The notes below the pieces were generated by a model. That model was not told the origin of the DNA. It saw only the letters and a program-made list of their open reading frames with translations, and ran no database searches. From contig NZ_NXIF01000002.1 in the NCBI RefSeq assembly GCF_002837275.1, positions 1 through 64,000 on the forward strand: a stretch of 64,000 nucleotides of DNA, given 5' to 3'. The translations under genes were made by a program, and so were the position numbers. This document shows, in pieces, positions 46,634 through 57,255 of this stretch. This DNA comes from Malaciobacter halophilus. Its GTDB lineage: Bacteria; Campylobacterota; Campylobacteria; Campylobacterales; Arcobacteraceae. Numbering within the stretch: position 1 is the stretch's first letter; the number at the start of each line of letters is the position of its first letter.

Positions 46634-48817
46634 ATGATAAATAATTATATTAAACTACTATTAAAAAGTACAAATGATTTAGTATATGAGTTTAATTCCT
46701 CTACAAAAACTTTAAAATGGCACAATAATATAAATAAATATTTCAATTTAAAAAATAGTAATGATTGCTTTGAAGAGTTTTATTCATTAATAACAGATGA
46801 TTCTCAAAATGAATTTTTAGATAAAAAAAATAGCAATAAAGATTTTATAGAAATAGTTTTTTTTATAAAAGACAAAAATAAAAAAATAAGAACTTTTAGT
46901 GATTCTTCTTTTAAATTTATACATAACAAACAATCAATCTATATTGGTACATGTAAAGATATAACTGAAAATCTAAACTATAAACTTGATACAAAAAATA
47001 TTACTAATATAATTGATTCAATAGATGATTTTATATTTTATAAAGATTTGAACTTTAGATATATAGAGTGTAATAAAGCATTTTGTAACTATGTTAATAG
47101 AAAAAAAGAGCAAATTATAGGTAAAAAAGACTCCGAAATATTTACTAAAGATACAGCAAATTTTGTAAATTGGTATGATAATGAACTTTTAAATAAAAAA
47201 GAGTCTATACTTTCTGAAAAGTGGATAACTGATGGTAATAATAATCAAAGATTCATACAAACTAAAAAAACTTTAGTAAAAGATAAACAAAATAAACCCT
47301 TTGCAATACTTGGTATTTCAAGGGATTTAACTTCAAAAAAACAGAAAGAAAAAGAGCTTGAAGAGAGTAAAAAAACATATATACGGCTTTTTGAAGCAAA
47401 TAAAGTTCCTGTTTTATTTATAGATCCACAAACTTACTATATTATAGATGCAAATAAAGCAGCCTTAAAATTTTATGGATACACACTTGAAGAGATTAGA
47501 GCTGAAAAGATTTCTAATATTAACACATTGACTAAAGAAGAAGTTCATCATGAAATGCACTTAGCTAATGAAGAAAAAAGAGATAGTTTTATTTTTAAAC
47601 ATCGATTAAAATCTGGAATAATAAAAGATGTAGAAGTTTTTTCAGGACCTTTAAAATATAAAAATAGAAAAGTTTTATACTCATTAATACATGATATTAC
47701 AAATAAAGTTAAAGTACAAAAAGCTTTAAGACAAGCAAATACAATATATCAAAATACAAAAGAAGGAATTTTTATAACCGATTTAGAAGGAAATATACTC
47801 TCTTCAAATAAAGCATTTACAAATATTACTGGCTATAAAAAAGAAGAAGTAATTGGTAAAAATCCTAGATTTTTAAAATCACATAAACACCCAAACTCTT
47901 TATATTCAAATCTTTGGGAGGAGATAAAATCTAAAGGCTTTTGGGAGGGTGAAATAATAAATAAAAATAAAGAAGGGAAAAACTATCCTCAGTGGCTTAC
48001 AATAAATACAGTTTATGATTTAAAAAACAATCCAATTAATTATATAGCTGTTTTTAATGATTTTAGTAAAATAAAAGAGCAAGAACAACTATTAAGAGAA
48101 AAAGACCATATTATGTTTCAACAATCAAAAATGGCAAGTATGGGAGAGATGTTAAGAAATATTGCTCATCAATGGAGGCAACCTTTAAGTGTTATTAGTT
48201 CATCAGCATCTGGATTAAAACTAAAACAGGAGTTAAAACTTCTTGAACCTAAAGAGATACCAGAGTTTTGTGATGGAATTCTTAAATCTGCTAAATACTT
48301 ATCTGAAACAATCGATGATTTTACAAACTTCTTTAAAAATCAAAATAAGAAAAAAGAGTTTTCAATAAAAGATGCAATTAATAAAGCTGTTCAATTATCT
48401 AGTGCTTCACTTAAAAATAATGAAATAGATATTATCACACACATAAATGATTGTAAATTATATGGTGTTGAAAATGAGTTTGTACAAGTAATGTTAAATA
48501 TAATAAATAACTCAAAAGATGCTTTTCATGAAAAAAACATAGAGAATAAAAAAGTTATTATTTCAAATACTTTAGGTAAAGAGCTAACACATTTAAGTAT
48601 AAAAGATAACGCAGGTGGCATTGCAAATAATATTATGGAAAAAATATTTGAGCCATACTTCACAACAAAAGATAAACTTCAAGGTACTGGAATTGGACTT
48701 TATATGTCACAAGAAATAATAAGAAGTCATTTAAAAGGAGAAATAAGAGTAGAAAATTATCAAGAGAATCAAGATAAAGGTGCTAATTTTACACTAGATA
48801 TTCCTTATACAATATAA
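46634..48817 (+). CDS. Multi-PAS sensor histidine kinase
   Basis: The 727-residue protein has about four PAS-type regions (residues roughly 1-115, 120-235, 248-360 and 370-480; for example IDSIDDFIFYKDLNFRYIEC and TIYQNTKEGIFITDLEGNIL) followed by a kinase core. The phospho-acceptor His is in RNIAHQWRQPLSVIS. ATPase boxes are NIINNSKDAF, DNAGGI, IFEPYFTTK and GTGIGLYM. There is no membrane segment. It has no response-regulator neighbour, so it is an orphan. AGAGGTG precedes the ATG. It lies just upstream of the ectoine operon. Confidence 0.92.
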   Translation: MINNYIKLLLKSTNDLVYEFNSSTKTLKWHNNINKYFNLKNSNDCFEEFYSLITDDSQNEFLDKKNSNKDFIEIVFFIKDKNKKIRTFSDSSFKFIHNKQSIYIGTCKDITENLNYKLDTKNITNIIDSIDDFIFYKDLNFRYIECNKAFCNYVNRKKEQIIGKKDSEIFTKDTANFVNWYDNELLNKKESILSEKWITDGNNNQRFIQTKKTLVKDKQNKPFAILGISRDLTSKKQKEKELEESKKTYIRLFEANKVPVLFIDPQTYYIIDANKAALKFYGYTLEEIRAEKISNINTLTKEEVHHEMHLANEEKRDSFIFKHRLKSGIIKDVEVFSGPLKYKNRKVLYSLIHDITNKVKVQKALRQANTIYQNTKEGIFITDLEGNILSSNKAFTNITGYKKEEVIGKNPRFLKSHKHPNSLYSNLWEEIKSKGFWEGEIINKNKEGKNYPQWLTINTVYDLKNNPINYIAVFNDFSKIKEQEQLLREKDHIMFQQSKMASMGEMLRNIAHQWRQPLSVISSSASGLKLKQELKLLEPKEIPEFCDGILKSAKYLSETIDDFTNFFKNQNKKKEFSIKDAINKAVQLSSASLKNNEIDIITHINDCKLYGVENEFVQVMLNIINNSKDAFHEKNIENKKVIISNTLGKELTHLSIKDNAGGIANNIMEKIFEPYFTTKDKLQGTGIGLYMSQEIIRSHLKGEIRVENYQENQDKGANFTLDIPYTI

Positions 48818-48955
48818 TATTACTTTTTACATATACTCCTGTTTATTTAAGTTCAAAATAAAACTTGCAAATAATACTATCACATAAATACATTCTAAAG
48901 TGATTTACAGAAGTTACATTCTTGCACACTCTAAGCTAATATAAAACTGTAAACA

Positions 48956-48968
48956 CCCCATGTTGGGG
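48956..48968. other. G+C-rich mini-hairpin in the gap before the ectoine operon
   Basis: CCCCA-TGT-TGGGG is a 5-bp stem with a 3-base loop. It is the only strongly G+C-rich element in the 293-base gap 48818-49110. No U-tract follows it on either strand, so a terminator role is not supported. Apart from this and the promoter nearer the operon, I see no gene in the gap. Confidence 0.35.
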
Positions 48969-49049
48969 AGTAATAAATATTGTTCAATTTTAAATAATAG
49001 TTAAAATAGAATTAAAATAAGACAAATTTTGACTTTAATTAAAAAAGTG

Positions 49050-49078
49050 TTGTAAATTGCATTTTTATATGATACAAT
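49050..49078 (+). promoter_or_regulatory. Sigma-70-like promoter of the ectoine operon with an inverted repeat
   Basis: TTGTAA (49050-49055) and TACAAT (49073-49078) are 17 bases apart, ending 32 bases before the first gene. AAATTG (49054-49059) and CAATTT (49075-49080) form an inverted repeat that spans the promoter, and it extends imperfectly outward (TTGTAAATTG against CAATTTTTCAA). This is a plausible operator. Confidence 0.6.
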
Positions 49079-49110
49079 TTTTCAATCTAGGTAATATTTA
49101 AGGATGTATT

Positions 49111-50274
49111 ATGAAACTTAAATGGATAGAAATAATAGAGTTTGCAAAAAATTTTAGAAGAGAGTTACATAAAAATCCTGAGCTAACTTGGGAAGAAATA
49201 GATACTGCTAAAGCCATAAGAGCAGCACTTAAAGCCCACTATACCCCCTATAAAGAGTTTGCCAATACAGGAACTGTTGTTACGCTTGCACCAAATGCAA
49301 AAGGTACTCATATCGCACTAAGAGGTGATATTGATGCTTTACAAATAGATGAACAAACAACAGTTCCTTATAAATCACAAAAACCAAATTGTATGCATGC
49401 CTGTGGCCATGATGGTCACACAGCTACTCTTTTAGCAACTGCTATTTGGTTAAAACAACATGAAAATAAACTTCCAGGTCCTGTTTCTTTAGTTTTTCAG
49501 CCTGCTGAAGAAGGTGGACATGGAGCAAAAAAAATGCTTGAAGAAGAAGCATTAAAAGGTGTTGAGTTCATCTATGGATGGCATAACTGGCCAGCAATAG
49601 AATTTGGAAAAGCAGTATGCCCCGATGGAGTAGTTATGGCAGGTAATGGGACTTTTCATATTGATATAAATGGACAAGGAGGACACTCTTCTCAGCCAGA
49701 AATATCAAAAGATCCTGTACTTGCTGCTAGTGCTATAACAATGGCACTACAACAAATAGTAAGTAGAAGAATAGCTCCTCAAAAAGCAGGAGTTGTTTCT
49801 GTTACTTCAATTGATGCAAGAAGTGGTTTAACAACAATACCTTCTCATGCAAAAATTGAAGGAAGTATTAGAATACCTGATTTAAAAACAAGAGATGAAG
49901 TAGCACAATCAATAAAGCAAATTGCACAAAATACTGCAAAAGCTTATAATGTGGAAGCTATTGTAGAGTTTAGAAATAGATATTCTCCTACAATAAATCA
50001 TGAAAATGCAGCTTCTAAAATGAGAGAAAAATTAGAAGAAGTATTAGGTAAAGATTATAAAAGCGATATTGCCACTCCAATTATGGCATCTGAAGATTTT
50101 AGTTACTATTTACAAGAAATACCAGGTGCATTTGCATTAATAGGAAGCAATGATGGTCAAGAAAAACATGGTAAACCTTGTCATAATGCATATTATGATT
50201 TTAATGATGAGTTAATAGAACCTGTTTGCAAAGTTTTTACAAAACTTGTAAATCTTGAATGTGAATTTATATAA
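49111..50274 (+). CDS. doeB2: M20-family amidohydrolase, likely N-acetyl-diaminobutyrate deacetylase (DoeB2 type)
   Basis: The 387-residue protein is an M20D metallopeptidase-fold amidohydrolase. LRGDIDALQI, MHACGHDGHTATLL (metal ligands), QPAEEGGHGAKKML with the catalytic Glu pair, and GQGGHSSQPE of the lid domain are all present. It begins an operon with doeD, doeC and doeA, so it most likely removes acetate from N2-acetyl-2,4-diaminobutyrate, the product of ectoine hydrolysis. The classical DoeB is an AstE/aspartoacylase-like enzyme; the M20 type is a non-orthologous replacement. Function rests on operon context. Confidence 0.85.
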   Translation: MKLKWIEIIEFAKNFRRELHKNPELTWEEIDTAKAIRAALKAHYTPYKEFANTGTVVTLAPNAKGTHIALRGDIDALQIDEQTTVPYKSQKPNCMHACGHDGHTATLLATAIWLKQHENKLPGPVSLVFQPAEEGGHGAKKMLEEEALKGVEFIYGWHNWPAIEFGKAVCPDGVVMAGNGTFHIDINGQGGHSSQPEISKDPVLAASAITMALQQIVSRRIAPQKAGVVSVTSIDARSGLTTIPSHAKIEGSIRIPDLKTRDEVAQSIKQIAQNTAKAYNVEAIVEFRNRYSPTINHENAASKMREKLEEVLGKDYKSDIATPIMASEDFSYYLQEIPGAFALIGSNDGQEKHGKPCHNAYYDFNDELIEPVCKVFTKLVNLECEFI

Positions 50275-50288
50275 ATAAGGAGTCTAAA

Positions 50289-51536
50289 ATGGTAGCTAAC
50301 AATACTGAAATTTTTGAAACATATGAATCTGAAATTAGAGCTTATTGTAGAGCGGTACCTACTGTATTTAAGGCTTCATCAAATGCAACAATGATTGATG
50401 AAAATAATAAAGAGTTTATAGATTTTTTTGGAGGTGCAGGAGTTTTAAACTTTGGTCACAATAATCCAAAAATGAAACAAGCACTAATAGAGTTTATACA
50501 AAGAGATGGTGTTGCTCACTCTCTTGATATGTTTACAGATGTAAAAAGAGATTTTATTGAAACATTTGCAAATACAATATTAAAACCAAGAGGATGGGAA
50601 GATAGAAAGCTTCAATTTACAGGACCTACAGGAACAAATGCTGTAGAGGCTGCATTAAAACTTGCTAGAAAAGTTACAGGAAGAACAGAAGTAGTAGCAT
50701 TTAATAGAGGTTTTCATGGAATGACTTTAGCAGCATTAGCTTGCACAGCAAATAATGCTTTTAGAAGTAGTGCTGGAGTACCTTTAACACATGTAATTAG
50801 AGATACATTTAATGATATGGATGCTTTAGAAAATTTAAGACAAAAAATGTTTGATTTAGCATCAGGTATGCTTCCTCCTGCCGCATTTTTAGTTGAACCT
50901 GTACAAGCAGAAGGTGGTGTTAGAGTTGCTACTAAACAGTGGCTTCAAGGAGTACAACAACTTGCAAAAGACACAGGTGCACTTTTTATTTTAGATAGTA
51001 TTCAGTGTGGTTGTGGAAGATGTGGAAGTTACTTTAGTTTTGATGATTTAGATGTTGACCCTGATATTATCATTCTTGCAAAAGGTTTAGGTGGATTTGG
51101 TACTCCTATTGGGATGTTAGTAAACAAACCAGAAATTGATAAACAATGGAATCCAGGACAACATACAGGTACATTTAGAGGACAAGGACTCTCATTTGTT
51201 GCAGGTAAAATAGGATTAGAGTATTTTAATGATGAAGAGTTTAATAATGAAACAATAAGAAAAGGAAATATAATAAGAGAAGTTTTAGATAATTTAAACT
51301 CAAAATACGAAAAAGTAGTTGATGTTAGACAAAAAGGTATGATGCTAGCAATTGAGTTTGATAGTGCAGATACTGTTAAAAAGATAACTACTAAAACATA
51401 TGAAAATGGTTTAATTATAGGTGCTTGTTCTACGGGTGAGATTATTAAGTTTATTCCACCATTAACAATTACTGATGAAGAGTTAAATAAAGGATTAGAA
51501 AGATTTACTGCTTCTGTTGAAGCTGTTTTATCTTAA
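50289..51536 (+). CDS. doeD: Diaminobutyrate aminotransferase (DoeD) of ectoine catabolism
   Basis: This is a class III (ornithine/GABA type) PLP aminotransferase of 415 residues. Motifs are FFGGAGVLNFGHNNP, the FTGPTGTNAVEAALKLARKV phosphate-binding region, FHGMTLAALA, ILDSIQCGCGRCGSYF and the PLP Lys in IIILAKGLGGFGTPIG. It resembles EctB-like diaminobutyrate transaminases. In the pathway it converts L-2,4-diaminobutyrate to aspartate semialdehyde with 2-oxoglutarate as acceptor. AAGGAGT is the Shine-Dalgarno. It lies 14 bases after the deacetylase and 12 bases before doeC. Confidence 0.9.
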   Translation: MVANNTEIFETYESEIRAYCRAVPTVFKASSNATMIDENNKEFIDFFGGAGVLNFGHNNPKMKQALIEFIQRDGVAHSLDMFTDVKRDFIETFANTILKPRGWEDRKLQFTGPTGTNAVEAALKLARKVTGRTEVVAFNRGFHGMTLAALACTANNAFRSSAGVPLTHVIRDTFNDMDALENLRQKMFDLASGMLPPAAFLVEPVQAEGGVRVATKQWLQGVQQLAKDTGALFILDSIQCGCGRCGSYFSFDDLDVDPDIIILAKGLGGFGTPIGMLVNKPEIDKQWNPGQHTGTFRGQGLSFVAGKIGLEYFNDEEFNNETIRKGNIIREVLDNLNSKYEKVVDVRQKGMMLAIEFDSADTVKKITTKTYENGLIIGACSTGEIIKFIPPLTITDEELNKGLERFTASVEAVLS

Positions 51537-51548
51537 AAGGAGAAGATT

Positions 51549-52946
51549 ATGGGATACAGCACAACACACTTTAAATCAATAAATCCATATACAGAAGAAG
51601 TTGTATATGAAATACCTATGCATACATTAGAACAAACAAGAGAGATTTTACAAAATGCTCAAGAAGCATTTTGTAATGAATGGATAAATACAACTTTTGA
51701 ACAAAGAGCATCACTTTTAAATGCTGTTGCAAAACAAATGAAAGACAATCTTGACTATTATGCTTTACCAATGACAGAAGAGATGGGAAAACCTATAAAT
51801 GAAGCAAGAGGAGAAGTAAATAAGGCAGCTTGGGCAGCAGAACATTATGCAAAATTTGCACAAGAGTATTTAAAAACTGAATATTTAGAATCAGATGCTA
51901 CTGAAAGTTATGTTCAACACTTACCTTTAGGTGTAACATTAGGTATTTTACCTTGGAATGCTCCTTTTTGGTTAGCATTTAGATATTTAGCACCTGCACT
52001 TATGTCTGGAAATACTTGTGTTATGAAACATGATTCTCATACACCTTTATGTGCAGTAAGAATCATTGAGGCTTTCCAAAAGGCTGGTTTTCCAAAAAAT
52101 GTTGTTCAAAATGTTGTTGTAGGACACTCTAATTTAGAATCAATGATAAGAAATCCTATTGTTAAAGGTGTCTCTTTAACAGGTTCTTCAAAAGCGGGTG
52201 CAGCTGTTGGAGCAATAGCAGGAAATGAAATTAAACCTGTAGTTTTAGAGTTAGGAGGAAGTGACCCAGCTATAATTTTAAAAGATACACAAGATTTAGA
52301 AAAAGCCGCAGATGTAGTAGTTCTATCAAGATATATAAATGCAGGTCAATCGTGTATAGCTGCTAAAAGAATTATTGTTGAAGAACCAATATATGAAGAA
52401 TTCATCGCTCTTTTAAAACAGAGATTTGAAAAACTTAAACTTGGTGACCCAAAAGATGAAACAACAGTAATTGGTCCAATTGCAAGAAAAGAGTTAGTAG
52501 AACAAATGCATGAACAAGTTAATAAATCTATCGCGGCTGGAGCAAGATTAATTTTAGGAGGAGAGAAACATCAAGGGAAAGGATTTTTCTTCCCTGTTAC
52601 TCTTCTTGCTGATGTTGAACCAGGTATGGTTGTATCTTGTCAAGAAACCTTTGGCCCAATTGCAGCAGTAATAAAAGCAAAAGATGAAGAAGAAGCAATA
52701 AAAATTGCAAATGATACAGAATATGGTTTAGGTGGCTCTATTTGGACAAAAGATATAGAAAAAGCAAAAAAACTTGCTGGAAAAATTATTACAGGACAAG
52801 TATCTATAAATGGTATAGTAAAATCAGATCCTAGACTTCCAAGTGGAGGAGTTAAAAAATCAGGACTTGGTAAAGAATTAGGGCCACATGGTATAAAAAT
52901 GTTTGTAAACACACAACAAGTTTGGATAGGTCCAGCTAAAGGGTAG
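51549..52946 (+). CDS. doeC: Aldehyde dehydrogenase DoeC (aspartate-semialdehyde oxidising)
   Basis: The 465-residue protein is an NAD(P)-dependent aldehyde dehydrogenase of the succinate-semialdehyde type. ILPWNAPFWLAFRYLAPAL is the cofactor-binding start, SLTGSSKAGAAVG the nucleotide loop, VLELGGSDPAIIL holds the general-base Glu, and NAGQSCIAAKRI the nucleophilic Cys. In the doe cluster its substrate is expected to be aspartate semialdehyde, giving aspartate. This specificity is assigned by context. It has an AAGGAGA Shine-Dalgarno and follows doeD by 12 bases. Confidence 0.9.
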   Translation: MGYSTTHFKSINPYTEEVVYEIPMHTLEQTREILQNAQEAFCNEWINTTFEQRASLLNAVAKQMKDNLDYYALPMTEEMGKPINEARGEVNKAAWAAEHYAKFAQEYLKTEYLESDATESYVQHLPLGVTLGILPWNAPFWLAFRYLAPALMSGNTCVMKHDSHTPLCAVRIIEAFQKAGFPKNVVQNVVVGHSNLESMIRNPIVKGVSLTGSSKAGAAVGAIAGNEIKPVVLELGGSDPAIILKDTQDLEKAADVVVLSRYINAGQSCIAAKRIIVEEPIYEEFIALLKQRFEKLKLGDPKDETTVIGPIARKELVEQMHEQVNKSIAAGARLILGGEKHQGKGFFFPVTLLADVEPGMVVSCQETFGPIAAVIKAKDEEEAIKIANDTEYGLGGSIWTKDIEKAKKLAGKIITGQVSINGIVKSDPRLPSGGVKKSGLGKELGPHGIKMFVNTQQVWIGPAKG

Positions 52947-52973
52947 TTTACTTCTTCTAGTAAGGAGAGAAAA

Positions 52974-54152
52974 ATGAAATTAGCTTTTCCTAAAGCAGAG
53001 TATGTAAAAAGAGTAAAAAAAGTACAAAGAGAGATGCGAAGAAAAGGCATTGATGTACTTATTGCAACTGACCCTGGAAATATGAATTGGCTAACTGGTT
53101 ATGATGGTTGGTCTTTTTATGTACACCAAGGAGTAATTGTATCTTTAGATGAAGAAGAGCCTATTTGGTTTGGAAGACATATGGATAAAAGTGCAGCACT
53201 ACTTAGATGTTATATGAAAGATGATAAATTAATTGCATATCCAGAAGAGTATGTTCAAAATCTTGATAAGCATCCAATGGAGTGGTTAGCAAAAAATATC
53301 TTTTTTGCTAGAGGATGGCATGATGCAACTATTGCTACAGAGATGGATAATTATTACTACTCTGCACAAGCACATTTAAGTTTAGTATCTAATCTTTGGA
53401 AAGCAAGATTCGTAGATAGCCAAAATCTAGTAAATTGGGCTAGATGTATTAAATCTGATAAAGAGATAGAGTATATGAAGATTGCAGGTAGAATAACTTC
53501 CAAAATTCATCAAAGAATACTTGATGTTGCAAGGGTTGGAATTCCTAAAAGTTTTGTTGTTGCACAAATTTATGAAACTGCAATTGAAGGAGTTGATGGA
53601 TATAGTGGAGATTATCCTTCTATTGTCCCTTTACTTCCTTCAGGGAAAGAGGCATCTGCTTCACATATTACTTGGGATAATAAACCTTTTAAAGCAAATG
53701 AAGGTACATTTTTTGAGGTTTCAGGATGTTATAAAAGATACCACTGCCCAATGTCAAGAACTTTATACATGGGGAAACCTTCCCAAAGGTTTCTAAATGC
53801 AGAAAAAGCTCTTCTTGAGGCTATTGATGCAGGACTTGAACAAGCAAAACCTGGTAATAAGACAAGTGATATTGCAAAAGCACTTGATAAAGTAATGCTT
53901 AAATATGGCATTGATAGACATGGTGCAAGATGTGGTTATCCAATAGGAGTTAGTTATCCTCCTGATTGGGGAGAAAGAACTTTTAGTATAAGAGCTTCTG
54001 ATGATACAATTTTAAAATCAGGAATGACCTTTCACTTTATGCCAGGCATTTGGCAAGATGATTGGGGAATTGAAATAACTGAAAGTATCTTAATAAATGA
54101 CGATGGATGTGAATCACTTTGTGATTATCCAAGAAAACTATTTATTAAGTAA
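52974..54152 (+). CDS. doeA: Ectoine hydrolase DoeA (M24 peptidase fold)
   Basis: DoeA opens the ectoine ring to N-acetyl-diaminobutyrate. The 392-residue sequence follows the known DoeA/EutD pattern closely: IATDPGNMNWLTGYDGWSFY, VHQGVIV, ATEMDNYYYSAQAH, GVDGYSGDYPSIVPLLPSGK, EVSGCYKRYHCPMSRTLYMG and GYPIGVSYPPDWGERTFSIR, ending FHFMPGIWQDDWGIEITESI. This is the pita-bread fold of creatinase/Xaa-Pro enzymes, with the YHCPMSR metal-site change typical of DoeA. It is last in the operon, 27 bases after doeC, with AAGGAG upstream of the ATG. Confidence 0.95.
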   Translation: MKLAFPKAEYVKRVKKVQREMRRKGIDVLIATDPGNMNWLTGYDGWSFYVHQGVIVSLDEEEPIWFGRHMDKSAALLRCYMKDDKLIAYPEEYVQNLDKHPMEWLAKNIFFARGWHDATIATEMDNYYYSAQAHLSLVSNLWKARFVDSQNLVNWARCIKSDKEIEYMKIAGRITSKIHQRILDVARVGIPKSFVVAQIYETAIEGVDGYSGDYPSIVPLLPSGKEASASHITWDNKPFKANEGTFFEVSGCYKRYHCPMSRTLYMGKPSQRFLNAEKALLEAIDAGLEQAKPGNKTSDIAKALDKVMLKYGIDRHGARCGYPIGVSYPPDWGERTFSIRASDDTILKSGMTFHFMPGIWQDDWGIEITESILINDDGCESLCDYPRKLFIK

Positions 54153-54438: not shown

Positions 54439-57255
54439 ATGAAAGATGCAATTAAAATTTATAACGCAAAAGAGAATAACTTAAAGAATATTAATTTAGA
54501 AATACCTAAAAATAAACTTATTGTTTTTACAGGGCTATCAGGTTCTGGAAAATCTACATTAGCATTTGATACACTTTATGCTGAAGGACAAAGAAGATAT
54601 ATAGAATCACTTTCTGCATATGCAAGACAATTTTTAGATAAAGTTGGAAAACCTGATGTGGAAAGAATTGAGGGATTAACACCAGCAATTGCAATTGACC
54701 AAAAAACTACATCTAAAAATCCTCGTTCAACAGTAGGAACTATTACAGAAGTTTATGATTATTTTAGACTTTTATATGCAAGAGTTGGAAAACAACACTG
54801 TCATAAATGTGGAAAACCAATATCACAAATGAGTTCTTCAGATGTAATTGAACAAGTTCTTTCACTTCCAGATGGAGCAAAAATTGTAATACTAGCACCA
54901 CTAATTAATAGAAAAAAAGGAACTTTTGCAGACCTTTTAGAAGGGCTTCGAAATAAAGGCTATGTAAGAGCAATGATTGATGGTGTGATGGTTAGACTTG
55001 ATGAAGAGATTGAACTTGAAAAAAATAAAATGCATACTATTAAAATAGTAATAGATAGAGTTGTAGTAAAAGAAGAGAACAGAGATAGAATCGCACAAGA
55101 TGTGGAAAAAGGTTTAAAAGAGAGTTTTGGAGAGTTAGAAGTAGAAATTATTAATCACAAAGAGTTAGACTGTGATAAGCATGTGCACTATTCTGAGCAT
55201 ATGGCTTGTTTTGATTGTAAAATCTCTTTTGAACCATTAGAGCCTTTAAGTTTTTCATTTAACTCACCCAAAGGTGCTTGTTCTTCATGTGATGGTTTAG
55301 GAATTAGATATTCACTTGATATGAAAAAAATTATAAATGAAGACTTATGTCTAAAAGATGGTGCTATTAAGATTATTTATGGTTTCAATAAGGGTTACTA
55401 CTTTAAAATGCTAACTGCTTTTTGTGAAGCAGCAAATATTGATATGAATAAAACTTTTAGAGAACTTGAAGAGCATGAAAAAAAAGCCATATTACATGGT
55501 GGAGTAGAAGAAGCTGTATTTACTTGGAAAAGACATAAATTAAGAAGAAAATGGGAAGGTATTGTAACAATTGCATATAACATGGTAAAAGATGAAAAAG
55601 ACATGGCAGAATATATGACTGAAAAAACATGTGATTCATGTAATGGAAATAGATTAAAGCCCTCTTCTCAAAGTGTTTATGTAGCAAAAAAAACAATATC
55701 AGACATTATAAATCTTCCAATTGAAGATGCACATAAATTTTTTCAAGATGAAAAAAACTTTGATTATTTGAATGCACAAAATAAAATGATTTCAGCTCCT
55801 ATTTTAAAAGAGATTAGAGAAAGAATCTTCTTCTTAAATGATGTAGGACTTGGATATATTACTTTAGGAAGAGATGCAAGGACAATCTCAGGAGGAGAAG
55901 CACAAAGAATTAGAGTTGCTAGTCAAATTGGTTCTGGACTTACAGGAGTTATGTATGTACTAGACGAACCTTCAATTGGTCTTCATGAAAGAGATACAAA
56001 TAAACTAATAAAAACACTTAAAGCTTTACAAGAAAAAGGCAATACTGTAATTGTTGTAGAACATGACAAAGAAACAATTAAAGAAGCAGACTTTATAGTA
56101 GATATTGGACCTAATGCTGGAAAATATGGTGGAGAAATTGTTTTTGCAGGAACATTAAAACAGATGCTAAAGGCAAACACTTTAACAGCTCAATATGTGT
56201 CAGGTAAAAAACAAATAGCCTATTCTCACAATAGACCTCAAGAAAAATATATTGAAATAAAAAATGTAAATATCAATAATATTAAAAATTTAGATGTACA
56301 AATTCCACTTAAAAATCTTGTATCAATCACAGGAGTTAGTGGAAGTGGTAAATCATCACTTATTTTACAAACTTTATTACCAGTAGCAAAAGAGTTATTA
56401 AATCATGCAAAAAGAGTAAAAAAAGTTGATGGAGTTGAAATATCAGGACTAGAAAACTTAGATAAAGTAATCTATCTTGACCAAAGTCCTATTGGAAGAA
56501 CACCAAGAAGTAATCCAGCAACTTATACTGGTCTAATGGATGAAATTAGAACACTATTTTCAAAAACAAAAGAGGCTAGTTTAAGAGGTTATAAAGTAGG
56601 AAGATTCTCTTTTAATGTAAAAGGAGGAAGATGTGAGAAATGTCAAGGTGAAGGTGAAATAAAAATTGAAATGCACTTCTTACCAGATATTATGGTTAAA
56701 TGTGATGAATGTGATGGACAAAGATATAATAGACAAACTTTAGAAATTTTATACAAAGGTAAAAGTATTGCTGATGTATTAAATATGAGTGTTGATGAAG
56801 CTTTAGAGTTTTTTGCAAAAGTTCCAAAAATATATGCAAAATTAAAAACATTAAGTGATGTAGGATTAGGATATATTACTTTAGGACAAAATGCTGTTAC
56901 TTTAAGTGGTGGAGAAGCACAAAGAATTAAATTAAGTAAAGAGTTAAGTAAAAAAGATACAGGAAATACATTATATATCTTAGATGAACCAACAACTGGT
57001 CTTCACTTTGCAGATGTAGATAGACTTACAAAAGTTTTACACCACTTAGTAGAAGTTGGAAACTCTGTACTTGTAATTGAACATAATCTTGATATTATCA
57101 AAAACTCTGACTGGGTTATAGATATTGGACCAGAAGGCGGAAATAAAGGTGGTAAAGTTGTTGCAGAGGGTACACCTGAAGAGTTAGCAAAAACTCATAA
57201 AAAAACAAACTCATATACAGGATATTATTTAAATAAAGAGTTAAATGAAAAATAA
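54439..57255 (+). CDS. uvrA: Excinuclease ABC subunit A
   Basis: UvrA recognises bulky DNA lesions and loads UvrB. The 938-residue protein has two ABC modules: Walker A GLSGSGKSTLAFDTLYAEGQ and GVSGSGKSSLILQTL, signature segments TISGGEAQRIRVASQ and TLSGGEAQRIKLSKE, and the zinc-finger cysteines in CHKCGKPI, CFDCK/CSSCDG and CEKCQGEGEIKIEMHFLPD with CDECDGQRY. It starts at ATG 54439 and ends inside the start of the DUF309 gene (11-base overlap). Confidence 0.97.
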   Translation: MKDAIKIYNAKENNLKNINLEIPKNKLIVFTGLSGSGKSTLAFDTLYAEGQRRYIESLSAYARQFLDKVGKPDVERIEGLTPAIAIDQKTTSKNPRSTVGTITEVYDYFRLLYARVGKQHCHKCGKPISQMSSSDVIEQVLSLPDGAKIVILAPLINRKKGTFADLLEGLRNKGYVRAMIDGVMVRLDEEIELEKNKMHTIKIVIDRVVVKEENRDRIAQDVEKGLKESFGELEVEIINHKELDCDKHVHYSEHMACFDCKISFEPLEPLSFSFNSPKGACSSCDGLGIRYSLDMKKIINEDLCLKDGAIKIIYGFNKGYYFKMLTAFCEAANIDMNKTFRELEEHEKKAILHGGVEEAVFTWKRHKLRRKWEGIVTIAYNMVKDEKDMAEYMTEKTCDSCNGNRLKPSSQSVYVAKKTISDIINLPIEDAHKFFQDEKNFDYLNAQNKMISAPILKEIRERIFFLNDVGLGYITLGRDARTISGGEAQRIRVASQIGSGLTGVMYVLDEPSIGLHERDTNKLIKTLKALQEKGNTVIVVEHDKETIKEADFIVDIGPNAGKYGGEIVFAGTLKQMLKANTLTAQYVSGKKQIAYSHNRPQEKYIEIKNVNINNIKNLDVQIPLKNLVSITGVSGSGKSSLILQTLLPVAKELLNHAKRVKKVDGVEISGLENLDKVIYLDQSPIGRTPRSNPATYTGLMDEIRTLFSKTKEASLRGYKVGRFSFNVKGGRCEKCQGEGEIKIEMHFLPDIMVKCDECDGQRYNRQTLEILYKGKSIADVLNMSVDEALEFFAKVPKIYAKLKTLSDVGLGYITLGQNAVTLSGGEAQRIKLSKELSKKDTGNTLYILDEPTTGLHFADVDRLTKVLHHLVEVGNSVLVIEHNLDIIKNSDWVIDIGPEGGNKGGKVVAEGTPEELAKTHKKTNSYTGYYLNKELNEK

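Follow-up and report, generated by a model that had tools for sequence, protein, structure and literature searches.

The doeBDAC pathway of ectoine breakdown has been proven with mutants in Methylotuvimicrobium alcaliphilum 20Z (PMC7192451). A 2018 review counted 539 EutD genomes, all from Proteobacteria and none epsilonproteobacterial, and a 2026 survey, which required EutD, EutE and EutB together, recorded ectoine catabolism in Proteobacteria, Thermodesulfobacteriota, Bacillota, Actinomycetota and Archaea, with neither Arcobacter nor Campylobacter mentioned in its main text. The openly licensed literature on ectoine in Arcobacter, Arcobacteraceae or Campylobacterota, beside which another report may exist, appears to deal with synthesis and not with degradation. 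Here we analyse a doe operon at positions 49111-54152 of a 64,000-nucleotide stretch from Malaciobacter halophilus (contig NZ_NXIF01000002.1; hereafter the window), which very probably encodes complete ectoine degradation of the doeB2 (doeBDAC) type. A first-pass annotation of this DNA had known of no description of the trait in Arcobacter-like bacteria, and this stands: the surveys name other phyla and we found no report from Campylobacterota, where ectoine catabolism seems to be undescribed, the pathway itself being known from other bacteria.

The operon consists of four complete open reading frames on the plus strand in the order DoeB2-DoeD-DoeC-DoeA, separated by 14, 12 and 27 bases, and each start codon is preceded by an AAGGA or AAGGAG ribosome-binding sequence. 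The first gene, doeB2 (49111-50274, 387 aa), is assigned to the M20-family N(2)-acetyl-L-2,4-diaminobutanoate deacetylases at 622 bits on NF038260 (curated cut-off 550) and, when aligned with the indole-3-acetic acid (IAA)-amino acid hydrolase 1xmb, carries the matching C-x-H (in MHACGHDGH), EE, H and C-terminal H, which we take to be the M20D metal-ligand motifs. The second, doeD (50289-51536, 415 aa), encodes a class III aminotransferase that scores 556 bits on the diaminobutyrate--2-oxoglutarate transaminase model NF006733 (cut-off 438) but only 476 bits on the EctB model TIGR02407 (cut-off 552); it is 42% identical to the EctB of the same genome, itself at 650 bits on the EctB model, and is thus a catabolic EctB paralogue. 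The third, doeC (51549-52946, 465 aa), encodes an aldehyde dehydrogenase (Pfam Aldedh, 475 bits), probably an aspartate-semialdehyde dehydrogenase as judged from the operon context and from its counterparts in other doe clusters. The fourth, doeA (52974-54152, 392 aa), encodes a predicted ectoine hydrolase of the M24 fold and of the classical DoeA/EutD type. DoeA would open the ectoine ring to give N-alpha-acetyl-diaminobutyrate, which DoeB2 would split into acetate and diaminobutyrate; DoeD would then pass the gamma-amino group to 2-oxoglutarate, yielding glutamate and aspartate semialdehyde, and DoeC would oxidise the latter to aspartate. The first-pass annotation had proposed just such a set of four adjacent genes, predicted to suffice for the conversion of ectoine to aspartate and already adapted in codon use; coordinates, families and gaps agree, and the GC content at third codon positions of the four genes (0.11-0.16) is at the level of the neighbouring genes. 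Elsewhere in the order, a genome of another family (G073) carries at a contig start a DoeB2-like gene of 55-56% identity with one in-frame stop (L076:8-1126), and no DoeA match was reported from that genome.

Several lines of evidence bear on the identity of DoeA. It matched the solved structure of Halomonas elongata DoeA (6twk) with an E value of 9e-169 and about 57% identity, while its best prolidase match reached only 2e-17. In the DoeA tree, it fell within classical DoeA/EutD, in a clade of 35 rows (support 100/99) that it shares with gammaproteobacterial DoeA and that stands among the alpha- and betaproteobacterial EutD, including that of Sinorhizobium meliloti. The reading as an Xaa-Pro peptidase, against which the first-pass annotation had set its assignment, is ruled out by the family scores, the structure match and this placement. 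Of 138 positions invariant across 16 classical DoeA sequences, the window protein retains 126; seven DoeA-like proteins that are more remote retain 102-118, and DoeA2 retains 67. Glu255, presumably the nucleophile, is present, but it is also found in all compared proteins, the more distant relatives included. On the DoeA2 model NF038259 (cut-off 575), the window protein scored 208 bits and the DoeA2 of a gammaproteobacterial cluster 790 bits. DoeA-like proteins of about 42-46% identity also occur outside the classical clade, in Bacillota, a Desulfobacteraceae metagenome-assembled genome and a haloarchaeon; the bacterial ones lie near M20 genes of about 30-32% identity, neighbourhoods that resemble the putative clusters of PMC13188858.

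The same genome also appears equipped to make and import ectoine. A single gene run holds ectA, ectB, ectC, a 100-aa frame, an EctD-like hydroxylase gene and an aspartokinase gene (ask); ectA, ectB and ectC score 189, 650 and 195 bits against cut-offs of 121, 552 and 128, and the EctD-like protein matches the solved EctD at 1.6e-84. The 100-aa frame between ectC and the ectD-like gene (L065:8287-8589) carries no family assignment; a congener (G003) has a homologue of 68% identity in the corresponding position. Unlinked to the doe operon, the genome further carries a three-gene tripartite ATP-independent periplasmic (TRAP) importer in which both permeases adjoin a binding protein that matches 3fxb (5e-119) and 2vpn (7e-111), which we take to be UehA and TeaA, respectively. 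Among 120 relatives, doeA was detected in 12 (5 of 53 genera), and an even sample of 397 genomes across the phylum gave 5 with the gene; all carriers are Arcobacteraceae. All 12 doeA genomes also carry ectC, which was found in 32 of the 120 relatives (Fisher 2e-8, a statistic that ignores relatedness), and 11 of the 12 encode the TRAP binding protein (≥48% identity); in several relatives the importer genes form part of the doe operon itself.

We consider turnover of self-made or re-imported ectoine the most likely role of the operon, because ectABC-ectD-ask and a UehABC/TeaABC-like importer are present in the same genome: when salinity falls, the doe enzymes would degrade ectoine that the cell has made or taken back, and environmental ectoine, when present, would serve as food. 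The first-pass annotation had instead proposed use of a marine solute as carbon and nitrogen source, to which the importer lends some support. Given the ectABC genes, the EctD-like gene and the aspartokinase of this genome, and the ectC of every doeA relative, breakdown of ectoine that the cell has made itself is no less likely than scavenging alone. An operon devoted solely to external ectoine, apart from the cell's own synthesis, could draw on the importers of the 11 genomes and on their place inside several doe operons, but it would have to be squared with the constant company of ectC, with TRAP genes in three ectC genomes that lack doeA (G004, G005, G030) and with one genome (G007) that has doeA and no such importer; moreover, methylotrophs use the same pathway type to break down their own ectoine after down-shock (PMC7192451). 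We therefore regard exclusive scavenging as unlikely.

Our functional reading draws directly on gene content, homology, conserved residues, synteny and phylogeny, from which each reaction, the regulation and the physiological use are deduced, and several points weigh against it. DoeA scores 586 bits against the TIGR02993 equivalog cut-off of 613, that is 27 bits short, so that the protein is filed as a putative DoeA through phylogeny and not through this cut-off; both other tested members of its clade, from Nitrincola (599) and the congener G002 (576), also lie below it. DoeC reaches no equivalog cut-off (best NF006915, 459 of 730 bits) and is thus called nothing more specific than an aldehyde dehydrogenase by its scores. 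No regulator gene was found adjoining the operon, enuR not having been searched for genome-wide. Finally, since the importer is unlinked to the operon and also present in the three doeA-less ectC genomes, import may serve osmoprotection and not feeding. The low DoeA score, together with the long stem branch (0.51) of the clade that unites Arcobacteraceae and gammaproteobacterial DoeA, could also be taken to mean that DoeA is a neofunctionalised M24 hydrolase with another N-acetyl cyclic or dipeptide substrate. The 126 retained positions, an operon shared with an above-cut-off DoeB2 and a diaminobutyrate transaminase, and the co-occurrence of doeA with ectC and ectoine-type TRAP importers make this very improbable.

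From its EctD-like enzyme, the cell may also make hydroxyectoine. None of the 12 doeA genomes yielded a canonical EutB above cut-off, the best candidate in the M. halophilus genome being a 404-aa frame that resembles threonine dehydratase (258 bits, cut-off 413); hydroxyectoine therefore has no recognised entry into the pathway. In four relatives, an MDR-family oxidoreductase gene and a gene for a proline-racemase/trans-3-hydroxyproline-dehydratase-family enzyme lie between usp and doeB2 in the doe operon (L069:8832-11019, L071:8160-10347, L072:8634-10819 and L074:8798-10983). In these EutB-less genomes, the pair could provide an unrecognised route for hydroxyectoine or a side product; its presence showed no clean correlation with an adjacent ectD.

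The genomic surroundings of the operon bear on its gain at this position. It is flanked on the left by a histidine kinase gene (46634-48817, plus strand), which stands outside the operon and has a 64% homologue in the congener G001, and on the right by uvrA (54439-57255, plus strand), conserved at 92-95% identity in five congeners. Four congeners have no doe genes at this site: in G001, the arrangement is TauE-kinase-uvrA, with the kinase homologue directly 5' of uvrA and no doe genes between them, and in G002, G004 and G005 it is TauE-uvrA. It is occupied in G003 (TauE-doe-uvrA). The empty site in congeners argues that the operon was gained at this position. Because G002, of the same genus, carries a separate doe operon at another locus with a DoeA of 72% identity, two distinct doe operons exist within one genus. 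The 293 bases before the operon (48818-49110, plus strand) are the expected place of a promoter; matches occur at 49029-49058 and 49050-49078, but shuffled sequences give more, and we claim none there. Terminator-like matches outnumber those in shuffles yet fall inside genes, and no terminator is claimed for the operon either.

The gene trees suggest that the operon is an old mosaic, its genes carrying discordant predicted histories. The DoeA of the window and of G003 forms a pair whose sister group comprises 13 gammaproteobacterial rows (98/95), to which the window protein is 78-82% identical, as opposed to 72-74% to 11 other Arcobacteraceae. By contrast, the DoeD pair is nested within Arcobacteraceae (100/97), as is the DoeC pair, and the DoeB2 pair is the sister of ten other Arcobacteraceae; the gene order of the window is shared only with G003 among the relatives. 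The DoeD, DoeC and DoeB2 trees do not support a model in which marine Alpha- or Gammaproteobacteria passed on the complete operon in one event. The acquisition by transfer put forward in the first-pass annotation thus holds as far as insertion is concerned, given the empty site and the patchy distribution, but not as a simple import from those marine Proteobacteria, only DoeA being closest to gammaproteobacterial genes. DoeA was likely exchanged between Arcobacteraceae and Gammaproteobacteria, in either direction; we say no more than likely because a constrained tree that holds all Arcobacteraceae DoeA together was not rejected (approximately unbiased test, P = 0.074). The discordance between DoeA and DoeD-DoeB2, together with the gene order, somewhat favours a mosaic built inside Arcobacteraceae, in which DoeA, apart from DoeD-DoeC, was either received from Gammaproteobacteria of the Oceanospirillales type or passed to them. 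Against this stands the same constrained tree, and base composition carries no signal of recent transfer on either the Arcobacteraceae or the gammaproteobacterial side, being ameliorated on both, so that it points to neither a direction nor a date. More tentatively, we envisage that Arcobacteraceae operate a hybrid turnover pathway within a cycle of synthesis, import and degradation, gained at least twice in one genus, and that its doeA was traded with Oceanospirillales; the transfer may have run from Arcobacteraceae into Gammaproteobacteria, in which the gene is free-standing and accompanied by a separate doeA2.

These results would add Campylobacterota to the phyla that carry ectoine catabolism and would let marine Arcobacteraceae recycle or consume an osmolyte that is abundant and rich in nitrogen. 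Compared to known systems, the operon shares with the doeBDAC clusters of M. alcaliphilum 20Z and Tsukamurella (so annotated in the latter) the same four activities, with an M20-type DoeB2, DoeD and DoeC; these hosts are likewise ectoine producers, and their clusters likewise lack adjoining EutABC, AsnC and EnuR. The window differs in its order (doeB2-doeD-doeC-doeA), in its host phylum and in its hydrolase, a classical DoeA that is about 28% identical to the DoeA2 of gammaproteobacterial doeBDAC clusters. Such doeB2-doeD-doeA2-doeC clusters, the usual setting of DoeB2, occur in Saccharospirillum, Nitrincola, Natronospirillum and Reinekea (types verified for one cluster). With a classical DoeA in place of DoeA2, the window and the other Arcobacteraceae that have the set carry, by family assignment, an unusual hybrid gene set. 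The types of ectoine hydrolase and deacetylase are evidently recombinable, and surveys that require EutD, EutE and EutB together, such as the 2026 one, therefore overlook operons of this kind.

The first-pass annotation had likened the locus to Halomonas and Ruegeria, a comparison that does not hold for the deacetylase and the gene set, both of the doeB2 (doeBDAC) type and not of the M14-DoeB type. The doeABX-doeCD or eutDE-asnC-ssd-atf clusters of Halomonas elongata, Ruegeria pomeroyi, Sinorhizobium meliloti and Salinivibrio do encode the same net pathway with a classical DoeA/EutD, whose identity to the window protein is about 53-60% in the cases measured, but Halomonas/Ruegeria-type clusters have an M14-type DoeB/EutE and usually asnC, enuR and eutABC (PMC5924519). 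All of these are absent from the window operon; its deacetylase is M20 and its flanks are a histidine kinase gene and uvrA. Closer at hand, ten more Arcobacteraceae genomes have the four genes together, with varying orders and loci: their operons hold the same hybrid set as the window, but in the order doeD-doeC-doeA-(TRAP-usp)-doeB2, at another locus, often with the TRAP importer inside and with a DoeA only 72-74% identical. Saccharospirillum, Nitrincola, Natronospirillum and Reinekea carry two hydrolase types, the clustered DoeA2 and a stand-alone DoeA of the classical type. This stand-alone doeA is the closest relative of the window gene outside the genus (78-82% identity), but, unlike the window doeA, it is not operonic with other doe genes.

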